From Rhodococcus sp. KRD162 (lineage in GTDB: Bacteria; Actinomycetota; Actinomycetes; Mycobacteriales; Mycobacteriaceae), in assembly GCF_017168335.1 (NCBI RefSeq), contig NZ_JABFAU010000010.1, forward strand, positions 1 to 64,000: a stretch of 64,000 bases of DNA. Reading direction: 5' to 3'. Every line of letters starts with the position of its first letter. Positions within the stretch are counted from its first letter, which is position 1. Below are positions 44,677 to 53,796 of the stretch, one piece after another. The position numbers and the translations under genes were made by a program. The notes beneath the pieces were generated by a model. It searched no databases, was not told where the DNA came from, and was given only the letters and a program-made list of their open reading frames with translations.

Positions 44677-45120
44677 TCAGGCATCCCCCGGGTGGCGGTC
44701 GACGGCTACGACGTCCAAATCCGTGTGCGTACGCCGATGACGGTCAAGGTAGCCGGCGACGTCTGATGCCTGGATTGGGCGGGACCACCAATAGCCTTGT
44801 CCGTGAACCGATCCCATTGCCACCAACGCCTGCGCTTGATCAGCGGTTTCGACGCCCTCGACCGTGAGGTCGAGGTCCAAGTCGGTGGCGAGGGTATGGA
44901 AAGCCGCAGAGACGGCGTCACCTTCCGGAGTGCCGAGTCGATCCGTCACCACTGTCGACATCGCGTCGCGATCTCCACCGACGTCGCTCTGCACCAGAGA
45001 CATTCGAAGGGCACGAATTCGTACACCGGCATTGCCCGATGCAAGCGGGTCCGGAATCCCGAAGTCCACTGCTGGATCAGCCTGATCGCCGAGGTCGTCA
45101 ACTTCGTTCGAAGTATTCAT
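44677..45120 (-). pseudogene. Truncated EAL-domain (c-di-GMP phosphodiesterase) fragment
   Basis: A 147-residue frame whose second half reads as the end of an EAL domain: LATDLDLDLTVEGVETADQAQALVAMGSVHGQGYWWSRPI. The catalytic EAL loop and metal-binding residues of the first half are missing, so it cannot be an active phosphodiesterase. Its ATG overlaps the last 23 bp of the flavoprotein gene, so it could be translated as the tail of the chaperone-redox operon, but it is more simply a leftover. Confidence 0.6.
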
Positions 45121-46798
45121 GAATCTGACGTACCGCTATCGCTCCTTCACCGACGGCGGATGCGACTCGTTTCACCGAGCCGCGACGGACGTCGCCCGCC
45201 GCGAACAGACCGGCCCGGCTGGTTTCGAGCGTCCTGAACTGCGCGGGGTCGATCGACCGGTTGTCGCCATCGAAGGCGTGGACCGCGTCCATACCCGTGA
45301 GTACGAAGCCGCGATCGTCGAGTGCGATTGCATCGGCCAGCCACCCGGTGTGCGGCACCGCTCCAATGAAGACGAATAGGGCGTGCACCCGGATTGTGTC
45401 CTGCTCGCCTGTGTGGTTGTCCGCGACTACGAGTTCGTCGAGATACTTCTGGCCGTGGACTGCCTGAATCTCTGTGTGTAGATGCACGGTGACCCGAGGA
45501 TGGCGATCGATCCGGTCGACGAGGTATCGGGACATGCTTTTTCCGAGGTCGTCGCCGCGGATGAGTAGATGGACGTCGGGAACATGGTCAGCGAGAAATA
45601 TAGTGGCCTGCCCCGCGGAGTTTCCGCCCCCGACGATGGCCACCGGATCGGCCCCGCACATCCGCGCTTCCTGATGGGTGGCGGCGTAGTACACGCTCGT
45701 CCCTTCCAGCGCCTCGATTCCGGGAACGGCCAACTTGCGGTAGCGCGCACCGGTGGCGAGCACGATGGACCGGCCGCGAACCGTGCCGCCGTCAGAGAGC
45801 CGGAGCACGTGGTACCCGGCTTCGGACGTCAATCCGGTCACCTCTGCCGAGACCAGGATGCGAGCACCGAACTTGTCGGCCTGGATCACAGCCCGCTCGG
45901 CCAATTCGGATCCGGAGATTCCGGCCGGGAATCCCAGATAGTTCTCGATTCGGGAGGAGGTGCTGGCCTGTCCCCCTGCGGCGCTCGTCTCCAGTGTCAC
46001 CGTGTTCAACCCGTCCGACGCTCCGTATACGGATGCGGCCAGTCCGGCCGGTCCTGCACCCACGACGACGAGATCGAACACGTCCTGGGCAGCGTTCGGC
46101 ACGGAAAGTCCGACGATGCGGGCGAGCTCTGTGTTCGTCGGATTGCGCAGTACCTTCTCGCCGTGCCAGATGACGACGGGAACGTCCTCGGGGGCGATGT
46201 CCAGGCTGCGCAACAGCTGCTCCGCCCGCTCGTCCCGCTCCAGATCGATCCATTTGTGAGGCAATCGATTTCGCATTGCGAATTCTCGAAGCCGCAACGT
46301 GTCCGGTGAATAGCAGGACCCGATGATCCGGAACCCCGAGCCGAGCCCGATCAGCAGGTGTCGACGCAGCAGGTAAGCCCGCAGGATCAGATCGCTCAGC
46401 ACTGGATCGTGGGCAACCAGTTCGCGCACCCGTTCGGCGGGAGTGACGAGCAGCTCGCCGTCTTCGATCGCTTCGGCGGTGTAGAACGCCACCTGACCTT
46501 CGAGCAGTCCGAGCTCACCCAAGAAGCGGCCGGGTCCGTGCACGCGAAGTATTCGACGTTCACCGTCCCGGTCACCCTCGTCGAGAACGGCGACCTTGCC
46601 GGACAGAACGACGAAGAAGTCATTGCTGGGCGCACCCTCGCGTATCAGCACTTCTCCGGTACGAACCGATCGACGTGTGCCACCGACCTCGAGCACTGCG
46701 ACCTGATCGTCCGTCAGCCGCGGGAACGCGCCGTGCTCGTCCGTGGTCTCGTCGACGACCGCTGGTCCGGCGTCCTCAGACGAAATTGCGGTCGACAT
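45098..46798 (-). CDS. cNMP-binding / glutaredoxin-like / TrxR-like flavoprotein fusion
   Basis: 566 residues from the ATG at 46798 (GGAGGTGG upstream). Residues 30-145 are a cyclic-nucleotide-binding (Crp-like) fold: RTGEVLIREGAPSNDFFVVLSGKVAVLDEG and GPGRFLGELGLLEGQ. Residues 155-225 resemble glutaredoxin with one Cys (FRIIGSCYSPDTLRLREFA, VPVVIWHGEKVLRNPT). Residues 237-566 are a thioredoxin-reductase-type module: VVVGAGPAGLAASVYGA for FAD, AIVGGGNSAGQATIFL for NAD(P)H, and LFAAGDVRRGSVKRVA. The usual CxxC of thioredoxin reductase is absent (YYAATHQEARMC instead), so it cannot reduce thioredoxin the standard way. It is the last intact gene of the chaperone operon and overlaps the zinc-finger gene by 23 bp. 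Confidence 0.88.
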   Translation of the reverse strand: MSTAISSEDAGPAVVDETTDEHGAFPRLTDDQVAVLEVGGTRRSVRTGEVLIREGAPSNDFFVVLSGKVAVLDEGDRDGERRILRVHGPGRFLGELGLLEGQVAFYTAEAIEDGELLVTPAERVRELVAHDPVLSDLILRAYLLRRHLLIGLGSGFRIIGSCYSPDTLRLREFAMRNRLPHKWIDLERDERAEQLLRSLDIAPEDVPVVIWHGEKVLRNPTNTELARIVGLSVPNAAQDVFDLVVVGAGPAGLAASVYGASDGLNTVTLETSAAGGQASTSSRIENYLGFPAGISGSELAERAVIQADKFGARILVSAEVTGLTSEAGYHVLRLSDGGTVRGRSIVLATGARYRKLAVPGIEALEGTSVYYAATHQEARMCGADPVAIVGGGNSAGQATIFLADHVPDVHLLIRGDDLGKSMSRYLVDRIDRHPRVTVHLHTEIQAVHGQKYLDELVVADNHTGEQDTIRVHALFVFIGAVPHTGWLADAIALDDRGFVLTGMDAVHAFDGDNRSIDPAQFRTLETSRAGLFAAGDVRRGSVKRVASAVGEGAIAVRQIHEYFERS

Positions 46799-47042
46799 AA
46801 CACCACCTCCAATCTTCTCCGGGTTCCATCGACCGAACGATCGGATGACCGACGACATGTGCGTGCGCGCTCGCGTGTCTGCCCGGCGAGGAGTCGCAAC
46901 ACCCGACGTGCCCGCATGTCAGGCACAGCCTCAGGTGCACCCACGGGGTGCCGAGACGGAGGCATTCTTCGCAGCCCTGCGGAGTTCTGGGCACCACGGA
47001 CCGGATTGCATCGACGTGCGGGTCCACTGGCACGAACGTCAT
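46776..47042 (-). CDS. UBP-type zinc finger protein
   Basis: An 88-residue protein from the ATG at 47042 (GGAGGCGA upstream). It consists of one ubiquitin-hydrolase-type zinc finger: GCEECLRLGTPWVHLRLCLTCGHVGCCD followed by RHASAHAHVVGHPI and WRWCYVD. In eukaryotes this domain binds the free C-terminus of ubiquitin; bacteria lack ubiquitin, so its ligand here is unknown. Such stand-alone copies in Actinobacteria tend to sit beside this class of flavoprotein. It overlaps both neighbours (4 and 23 bp), so the three products are made together. Confidence 0.88.
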   Translation of the reverse strand: MTFVPVDPHVDAIRSVVPRTPQGCEECLRLGTPWVHLRLCLTCGHVGCCDSSPGRHASAHAHVVGHPIVRSMEPGEDWRWCYVDRNFV

Positions 47043-51907: not shown

Positions 51908-51915
51908 CTCGTGCC

Positions 51916-53796
51916 TCAGCTTCGATCGAATTCGGCGTCGATCACGTCGTCGTCATCGGTCGAGGCCGCGTCCGCGCCACCGACCTGACGTCCGTCACCG
52001 CCGTCCTGTACCGGCACGAGCCCGTAGAGGAGCTGTTGGAGCTCGGAGGCGAGTGGTTGTACATCTGCAGGCGAAGCGCCGTCCTTCACTGCCTTTCTGG
52101 CATCGGCGATCAGCATCTCGGCCCGTGCCCTGTCGTGCGGTGGCGCGCTGTCACCGAGTTCGGCGAGTCGCCGTTCCACCTGATACGCAACGGAATCGAG
52201 TTCGTTGCGCGCGTCGACAGCTTTGCGCAGCGCCTCGTCATCGCCCCGATTCCGTTCGGCCTCGGCCAGCATGCGTTCGACCTCGCTCGGGTCCAGATTG
52301 CTCTGCTCACTGATCGTGATGCTCTGTTCCTTGCCGGTGTCCTTGTCCCTGGCCGTGACATTGAGGATGCCGTTGGCGTCGATATCGAACGTGACCTCGA
52401 CCTGGGCGTCGCCGCGCGGTGCGGGCCGGATGTCTTCCAGACGGAAACGTCCGAGCGAACGGTTGTCGGCGGCCCGCTCGCGTTCGCCCTGCAGCACAAC
52501 GACATCCACGGCGGACTGCTCGTCCTCCGCGGTGGAAAACACTTCGCTGCGGCGGGCCGGGATGGTCGTGTTGCGCTCGATGATCTTGGTCATCACCCCG
52601 CCCTGTGTCTCGACGCCGAGAGACAGCGGGGTGACGTCGAGCAGCAGCACGTCGGAGACCTCGCCCTTGAGCACGCCGGCTTGAACCGCCGCGCCGAGAG
52701 CCACGACTTCGTCCGGATTGACGCCCATGTGGGGGTCCTTGCCGCCGGTGAGCCGGCGAACCAGGGCTTGCACCGCCGGGATGCGCGTCGAACCACCGAC
52801 CAGAATCACTTCGTCTATGTCGTTGGCGGTGACCTTGGCATCACTCATTGCCTGTTTCACCGGGTCGAGGCAGCGCTCCACGAGATCCGCCGTCAGATCC
52901 TCGAACTTCGATCGCATTACGGTCGTGGTGAGATGTTTGGGACCGTCAGCGTCCGCGGTGACGAATGGCAAGTTGACCTGGGCCTGTGTCACCGAGGACA
53001 ACTCGACCTTGGCCTTCTCTGCGGCCTCGAAAAGGCGCTGCAACGCTTGTGCGTCCTTGCGTAGATCGATGTTCTCCGCGTGCTGGAATCCATCGGCGAG
53101 ATAATCGACCAGGCGTCGGTCGAAATCGTCTCCCCCGAGGTGCGAATCGCCGGCCGTGGACCGAACCTCGACGACGCCGTCGCCGACGTCGAGCAGGCTC
53201 ACATCGAAGGTGCCGCCGCCGAGGTCGAAGACCAGTACGGTTTCGTTGACCTGCTTATCCATACCGTATGCCAGTGCTGCAGCGGTCGGTTCGTTGATGA
53301 TCCGTAAGACTTCCAGGCCAGCGATTCGCCCGGCATCCTTGGTGGCGTTGCGCTGCGCGTCGTTGAAGTAGGCGGGAACGGTGATGACCGCTTCTTTGAC
53401 CTTTTCACCGAGGAATTTACTCGCGTCGTCCACGAGCTTGCGCAGTACGAGGGCGCTGATCTCCTCCGGTGCATGCTTCCTGCCTCGAACATCGATCCGG
53501 GCTTCACCGTTCTCACCCGGTACGACGTCGAAGCTGACTGCTTTGGCCTCTGCGGAGATCTCGTCGTAGTGACGTCCGATAAAGCGTTTAGCAGAGTAGA
53601 TCGTGCCCTTCGGATTCAGTATCGCTTGCCTTCGAGCAAGCTGTCCTACCAGGCGCTCCCCGCTCTCGGTGAACGCGACTACCGACGGTGTCGTCCGAGC
53701 TCCCTCGACATTGGAAATCACCACCGGTTCACCGCCTTGCCAGCTCGCAATAACCGAGTTGGTTGTGCCCAGGTCTATACCCACAGCGGTCGCCAT
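51916..53796 (-). CDS. dnaK: Hsp70 chaperone DnaK, accessory copy
   Basis: A 626-residue Hsp70 from an ATG with AAGGAATG upstream. Nucleotide domain: [45 protein letters not shown]. Substrate domain from about 390 ([27 protein letters not shown]), then a helical lid and an acidic tail ending [12 protein letters not shown]. All expected blocks are intact. It heads the dnaK-grpE-dnaJ-regulator-clpB-trx-UBP-flavoprotein operon. Mycolic Actinobacteria normally have a separate core dnaK operon, so this is probably a duplicate, acquired with the block. Confidence 0.96.

Follow-up and report, generated by a model that had tools for sequence, protein, structure and literature searches.

An operon of eight genes is found in the first 64,000 nucleotides of contig NZ_JABFAU010000010.1 of Rhodococcus sp. 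KRD162, a stretch that is hereafter called the window. All eight open reading frames (ORFs) are open from start to stop, and they are closely spaced on the minus strand from position 53796 to position 45098. Their order is dnaK, grpE, a cbpA-type dnaJ, a cbpM-like gene, clpB, a thioredoxin gene with a zinc ribbon, a gene for a UBP zinc finger, and a gene that fuses a cyclic-nucleotide-binding (CNB) domain, a thioredoxin-fold domain and a domain resembling thioredoxin reductase (TrxR). This arrangement is more than chance, because the identical gene order is found again in other genera. We consider it probable that the operon encodes a second protein-disaggregation system of the Actinomycetota, self-contained and spread by horizontal transfer.

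The family of each gene product was assigned by Pfam and NCBIfam profile matches (Table 1). Profile matches and alignment reveal the complete set expected of a ClpB/DnaK bichaperone, namely a full-length ClpB together with DnaK, GrpE and a J protein whose HPD motif is kept in all 25 aligned members. There is no match to the DnaJ zinc finger in this J protein among the Pfam profiles. Successive genes are separated by 8 bp (dnaK-grpE), 6 bp (grpE-cbpA), -4 bp (cbpA-cbpM), -19 bp (cbpM-clpB), 14 bp (clpB-trx) and -4 bp (trx-UBP). The last distance, between the UBP gene and the fusion gene, is -83 bp with the longest ORF and -23 bp if translation of the fusion protein begins at 46798, which is preceded by GGAGGT just upstream and is also the start annotated in one plasmid copy. 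A preliminary description of this DNA had reported eight intact genes on one strand with gaps of -23 to +14 bp, and this is confirmed, wherein the value of -23 presupposes the start at 46798.

Table 1. Genes of the accessory operon, followed by other features of the window
Feature	Position	Strand	Matches and remarks
Accessory dnaK, 626 aa	51916..53796	-	PF00012, 805 bits
grpE, 174 aa	51383..51907	-	PF01025
cbpA-type J protein, 309 aa	50447..51376	-	PF00226 and PF01556 (J domain and C-terminal domain)
cbpM-like MerR_2 protein, 109 aa	50121..50450	-	PF13591, 46.4 bits, scored on the longer ORF 50121-50702
clpB, 877 aa	47506..50139	-	TIGR03346, 1317.7 bits (cut-off 1232.1)
Thioredoxin, 150 aa, N-terminal zinc ribbon, WCGPC	47039..47491	-	Pfam thioredoxin; Zn_ribbon_Thio2 match below cut-off
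UBP-type zinc finger, 88 aa	46776..47042	-	PF02148, 48 bits; solved relative 2ida
Fusion protein (CTR), 566 aa	45098..46798	-	cNMP_binding and Pyr_redox_2: CNB domain, thioredoxin-fold domain, TrxR-like flavoprotein without CxxC; longest ORF extends to 46858
EAL-domain protein, C-terminal fragment	44677-45120		Pfam; directly downstream of the operon
YflT-like general stress protein gene (gsp), relic	53841..53933	-	31 aa of the C-terminal part; gene precedes dnaK in relatives
Small divergent ORF	54708..55040	+	Same position in G140, G263 and G275, ~78% DNA identity within 54499-55040; no Pfam match
Remnant of a plasmid hypothetical gene	55226-56315		Two pieces; intact gene 365 aa, no Pfam match
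tRNA-Lys(CTT)	41908..41982	+	Left edge of ~25.7 kb of extra DNA

A separate set of core chaperone genes is present in the same genome. The core dnaK-grpE-dnaJ-hspR block is located on contig 19 and the core clpB on contig 45, and matches of the core type are found in all 37 genomes of the genus that were searched. Thus, the accessory operon is not the housekeeping set, a possibility that the preliminary description had told its readers to look for. The order of dnaK, grpE, a J-protein gene and a MerR-type gene is common to both operons. They differ in that the accessory DnaK and ClpB have only 54% and 57% protein identity to their core counterparts, the J protein is of the CbpA type, the MerR-type protein lacks TLRxY, no HAIR site was found, and clpB lies within the operon. 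In a tree built from 28 core and 24 accessory DnaKs, whose root is not known, a branch of 1.13 changes per site with 100/100 support separates the accessory proteins from the core ones. One DnaK from Gordonia, one from a Nocardia plasmid and one from a Rhodococcus plasmid group together in this tree (bootstrap 97; SH-aLRT 76, just below the starred line of the tool). A third and very divergent DnaK homolog is found in genome G000 (contig C53:36928-38451, locus L003). It scores 412 bits, has one internal TGA in the matched stretch, and forms a very long branch outside both the core and the accessory groups.

There are six genomes among the 37 of the genus, one of them that of the window, that carry a full-length accessory dnaK-to-clpB stretch, at no fewer than three sites. 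The DNA identity of this stretch to the window is 98% in G140, 97% in G263, 96% in both G275 and G305, and 86% in G299. In the wider family sample, 28 of 301 genomes encode the fusion protein at E<=1e-120, and in 26 of these 28 the accessory DnaK is encoded on the same contig, at a distance of some 6-7 kb. A deeper search of the phylum gave matches to the fusion protein in 51 of 396 genomes, a mixture of operon-type proteins and stand-alone relatives. Fourteen regions from this deeper search were scanned, and chaperone genes are present in two of them (G348 and G259), while four are contigs shorter than 8 kb. The ordered set of eight families, which had been proposed as the object of such a search, does recur: among 28 named loci that the fusion protein recruited, the full set is present in order at 16, and three more lack only UBP. 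The remainder comprise four loci cut by contig ends, three with the fusion gene and no chaperones, and two weak matches in which no member of the set occurs.

Travel on plasmids, also proposed at the outset, is supported by records from Rhodococcus, Nocardia and Gordonia. At least 80% of the accessory dnaK is held by 21 of 72,556 plasmid records, and 16 records from Rhodococcus, Nocardia farcinica and Gordonia have a full-length dnaK match at 85.3-88.8% DNA identity, with some plasmids represented more than once through sister strains. The annotated order of the operon is seen on Rhodococcus, Nocardia and Streptomyces plasmids, wherein one Streptomyces record lacks the UBP gene, and more distant versions are found on plasmids of Streptomyces, Arthrobacter and Nocardia. 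The region after clpB is the variable one. An IS3 element follows clpB on the Gordonia plasmid pSMJS1.2, and a trypsin-like protease gene does so on a conjugative Arthrobacter plasmid, in the neighbourhood of ftsH and two Hsp20 genes. In N. farcinica HB204 the following genes encode an M48 protease and a trypsin-like protease. Deletions that begin inside trx and end inside the fusion gene, with different breakpoints, have occurred on plasmid unnamed4 of Rhodococcus NJ-530 and in genome G299, and the chaperone genes are kept in both. The constant part is dnaK-grpE-cbpA-cbpM-clpB. The redox tail is one of several alternatives that can follow it, and it is sometimes deleted.

Partial copies are also found on plasmids. 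On five records, which are NC_008269.1 and NC_008270.1 of R. jostii RHA1 and three plasmids of DK strains, dnaK is matched only through one shared relic, a 457-base piece of the accessory gene (query 554-1012, 89%). On pDK2 (locus L009), partial second copies of clpB-trx and dnaK, at 34379-36009 and 11482-11698, lie beside a complete operon.

In the genome of the window, the operon is contained in about 25.7 kb of extra DNA that extends from a tRNA-Lys(CTT) gene to contig position ~67.8 kb, a position beside tRNA genes being one that the preliminary description had proposed to test. This island is defined only by comparison with relatives, and both of its flanks were located in two of four, G140 and G263, where they are ~2.1 kb and ~9.1 kb apart, respectively, and the operon is missing from between them. 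The stretches fetched after the tRNA gene in G275 and G299 are likewise without the operon, and the right flank is not within the 20 kb fetched. None of these four relatives has the operon beside tRNA-Lys, and a location common to all relatives is not what was found. Instead, G140, G263, G275 and G305 share a second site, and G299 has a third. Repeats of 36 bp from the 3' end of the tRNA are present at the tRNA-Lys site in G263 (97%) and G275 (94%), and are a sign of an integration hotspot. In G275 (locus L181, 1484-13322, beside tRNA-Lys(CTT)), the 36-bp repeat is accompanied by a ~180-base repeat of the 3' region. No tRNA-Lys 3'-end repeat was found on the right side of the window's own extra DNA, and there is no integrase among the ORFs of this DNA that were scanned with Pfam, some ORFs of the stretch lying outside the scan.

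Comparison of the window with the four clade copies (G140, G263, G275 and G305) in 300-base steps reveals 93-100% identity from ~53.0 to 46.0 kb and 76-91% identity at the edges, which are no nearer to the clade than to plasmid copies. For the accessory clpB, the synonymous divergence (dS) from G140, G275, G263 and G305 is 0.024, 0.083, 0.073 and 0.070, whereas the corresponding values for the core clpB are 0.436, 0.472, 0.420 and 0.440, a difference of 5.7-18 times. The high identity of the middle ~7 kb, in genomes whose core clpB genes are far more diverged, shows recent recombination with the related clade. In G299, the dS of clpB is also lower for the accessory gene (0.543) than for the core gene (0.769). 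Ratios of nonsynonymous to synonymous divergence (dN/dS) against G299 are ~0.05 for DnaK, 0.08 for ClpB, and 0.17-0.31 for GrpE, CbpA, CbpM and what is left of the fusion protein. These values cover six of the eight genes, since trx and UBP are deleted in G299, and for these six they support purifying selection, in keeping with the selection suggested in the preliminary description. The same description had proposed a portable unit in accessory DNA. This proposal is supported by the separate core copies, the absence of the operon beside the tRNA gene in four relatives, the plasmid records and the recent exchange.

The MerR_2-family protein encoded directly after cbpA falls below the NCBIfam cut-offs for both HspR (31.2 bits; cut-off 105) and CbpM (26.6 bits; cut-off 138). 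The TLRxY motif of core HspR is found in none of 25 accessory MerR-type proteins. A HAIR-like site with one mismatch starts 114 bases upstream of the core dnaK, and a weaker one with three mismatches precedes the core clpB. Within 1.1 kb of the accessory operon the best HAIR candidate has five mismatches, and candidates in plasmid copies have four to six. A search upstream of the operon for consensus HAIR, CIRCE and sigma-factor patterns gave nothing convincing. Because TLRxY is absent and the operon has no good HAIR site upstream, the protein is more likely to be a CbpM-like brake than an HspR-type repressor. As in the CbpA-CbpM pair of Escherichia coli, a J protein without a zinc finger is followed by a small MerR_2-family protein. 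The pair described here differs in its low CbpM score and in its linkage to its own DnaK, GrpE and ClpB.

The fusion protein has TrxR and AhpF as its best sequence and structure matches. It shares with low-Mr thioredoxin reductases and AhpF the architecture of FAD and NADPH domains, and the Rossmann motifs of both types are kept (GAGPAG and GGGNSAG). It differs from them in having N-terminal CNB and thioredoxin-fold domains and in the residues at the active site. There is no CxxC anywhere in any of the 32 aligned fusion proteins. The region where TrxR has its CxxC reads Y-x-A-T in all 32 (Y391, A393 and T394, numbered on the 586-aa reading; subtraction of 20 gives the numbering of the 566-aa protein), and a single invariant cysteine, Cys 401, lies further on. 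The TIGR01292 score is 211.8 bits against a cut-off of 343.45. Another cysteine, Cys 182 in the thioredoxin-fold domain, is present in 24 of 32 proteins. A structure model of the 586-aa reading is of moderate quality (pLDDT 68.5, pTM 0.41), and its side-chain geometry was not relied on. The middle domain has the element order of a thioredoxin-type fold in this model, with at most one cysteine at the active-site position, and the earlier label of a Grx domain can be kept by fold only.

The match to PF00027 at 74.8 bits indicates that the CNB fold is kept. The arginine of a CNB phosphate-binding cassette holds the phosphate. The cassette in the window protein is GELGLLEGQVAFYTAEA, which has no arginine. 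None of the 32 fusion proteins has an arginine at alignment columns 120-124, and five distant members have one within columns 125-129. Lacking both the CxxC and the cassette arginine, the fusion protein offers no basis in its sequence for passing a dithiol to thioredoxin or for control by cyclic nucleotides, and the suggestion of the latter in the preliminary description is not supported.

The thioredoxin keeps WCxPC in all 28 members and the CxxC pair of its ribbon in 27 of 28. It has a zinc ribbon and WCxPC as in thioredoxin 2, and it scores 106.2 bits with the TrxC model (cut-off 125). The UBP finger resembles 2ida and, weakly, the fingers of HDAC6 and USP. A UBP gene is found within ~150 bases of a fusion-type gene at L062, L165 and L174, where chaperone genes are not nearby, and the pair is also present on the short contigs L066 and L151. 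This adjacency suggests that the UBP finger and the fusion protein work together.

Perhaps the CbpA-type J protein marks aggregated or unfolding proteins and loads them onto its own DnaK, which would be reset by GrpE. The accessory DnaK would then pass aggregates to its own ClpB, which could thread them apart, while the CbpM-like protein would act as a brake on the J protein. The zinc-ribbon thioredoxin might reduce wrong disulfides in the released clients. The UBP finger and the flavoprotein form an optional tail, wherein the flavoprotein is expected to pass or sense electrons (NADPH/FAD) by a route other than the dithiol of a thioredoxin reductase. Such a scheme would involve complex formation among the encoded proteins and could confer protection against stress.

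A number of observations weigh against a mobile and self-contained system. The operon has a single location within the clade of G140, G263, G275 and G305, and inheritance within this clade looks vertical as a result. In comparisons with the same four genomes, the accessory dnaK (dS 0.23-0.25) is no closer than the core dnaK (0.226, 0.233, 0.221 and 0.232 for G140, G305, G263 and G275), because its 5' part lies in the diverged edge. The accessory dnaK of G299 is even further away (dS 0.665) than the core gene (0.278), which indicates that this copy was not exchanged recently. The shared location and the dnaK values, like the grouping of accessory DnaKs apart from the core, might be expected of an ordinary old paralogous heat-shock operon that is inherited vertically, has been lost in most lineages and lies in a variable region by chance. 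However, such an operon should not be found on plasmids of several genera and at differing sites within one genus, nor does it account for the low dS of the accessory clpB or the clustering of a Gordonia DnaK with one from a Nocardia plasmid and one from a Rhodococcus plasmid. This explanation is therefore very unlikely and has already been largely refuted.

Further points concern the integrity of the unit. The dnaK gene has a stop at codon 418 in G140 and is in two frames in G259, and part of the trx-fusion stretch is deleted in G299 and NJ-530. Some stretches of 16-22 kb (L062, L064, L065, L163 and L166-type loci) carry a fusion protein at 52-55% identity and no chaperones. A conserved block upstream of gsp is common to ten plasmid and genome copies. 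Nothing in the window copy matches the DNA that lies upstream of gsp on plasmids, and this copy may consequently be poorly or differently expressed. This lost region, the gsp relic and the broken neighbouring genes might indicate that the window copy is a decaying relic without function in this strain, but all eight frames are intact, the middle ~7 kb was renewed recently by recombination, and dN is low, which together make decay unlikely. It is also improbable, to about the same degree as an old paralog, that the operon is chiefly a cassette for redox or thiol defence, formed by the thioredoxin and its own reductase with the chaperones as passengers. The intact thioredoxin and the TrxR/AhpF-like sequence and fold matches of the fusion protein are what this explanation has to offer. 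However, the reductase-like protein invariably lacks CxxC, two deletions that differ in their breakpoints remove the redox stretch and retain the chaperones, and proteases take its place after clpB in the Arthrobacter and N. farcinica HB204 versions. The redox repair proposed in the preliminary description is only partly supported, by the intact thioredoxin and not by the TrxR-like protein.

These actinobacteria appear to exchange protein-quality control in the form of a ready-made unit. What moves in a second disaggregation system of this kind is the partner-dependent DnaK-ClpB machine, together with every co-chaperone and a likely private brake for the J protein, and this makes it possible to test whether an imported disaggregase needs to come with a DnaK of its own. 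The conserved CxxC-less TrxR-like protein beside a bacterial UBP finger is a concrete biochemical target. A bolder reading, which we regard as doubtful, is that the Actinomycetota have mobile proteostasis islands with a private DnaK-ClpB and exchangeable tails (redox, or HtrA-like/M48 protease), wherein the UBP finger and the CxxC-less flavoprotein of the redox tail would control disaggregation as a new arm that senses clients or redox state.

The transmissible locus of stress tolerance (tLST; also LHR or TLPQC) is described as mobile xenologs of quality-control genes, a disaggregase and a thioredoxin among them, that are carried on islands and plasmids mainly of beta- and gammaproteobacteria (PMC8290217, PMC8129007). 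The actinobacterial operon is similar in that it also consists of horizontally transferred xenologs of core quality-control genes, and genes for Hsp20, FtsH, trypsin-like, M48 or PsiE-family proteins near the actinobacterial cassettes on some plasmids add to the likeness. It differs from the tLST in having a ClpB with its own DnaK, GrpE and J protein rather than a stand-alone ClpG or ClpK, and in having the UBP finger and the CxxC-less flavoprotein in addition. The accessory ClpB scores 805.9 bits with the ClpK model and 799.2 bits with the ClpG model, for which the cut-offs are 1900, and Pfam finds no Hsp20 among the eight genes of the operon. Because ClpG/ClpK and an internal Hsp20 are missing, the operon is not a member of the tLST. 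It is best read as an actinobacterial counterpart with different genes. The resemblance to proteobacterial islands noted in the preliminary description, which had also remarked on the different gene set, would accordingly be one of function and mobility and not of a shared disaggregase. No description of this operon was found in the titles or abstract openings of open-licence literature, subscription papers being outside the search.

The block surrounding the operon had been described as full of broken genes. The relics of gsp, of the EAL-domain gene and of the plasmid hypothetical gene are real, while other genes of the block, such as those for an ABC transporter and an NmrA-like protein, match their families normally. 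The gsp gene is whole in several plasmid copies (e.g. L009, L010, L011 and L070). A DUF1931 gene often follows the fusion gene at other loci and has no match in the window. On pDK4 and pYLL1, the operon is flanked by two direct ~1.1-kb copies of the 365-aa hypothetical gene, which are 87% identical on pDK4. These repeats were considered as the ends of a transposon. They have no Pfam match and are not in both flanks of the other copies examined, and no transposition mechanism is claimed.

Two operon-bearing plasmids carry other genes of note. The same region of pDK2 encodes a Dyp-type peroxidase and encapsulin shell pair (32405-34260) and several universal stress proteins. A Streptomyces plasmid (L012, 21950-24707) has extra genes for ribosomal proteins L32, S18, L31B, L33, L28 and S14 and for a GTP-binding protein.

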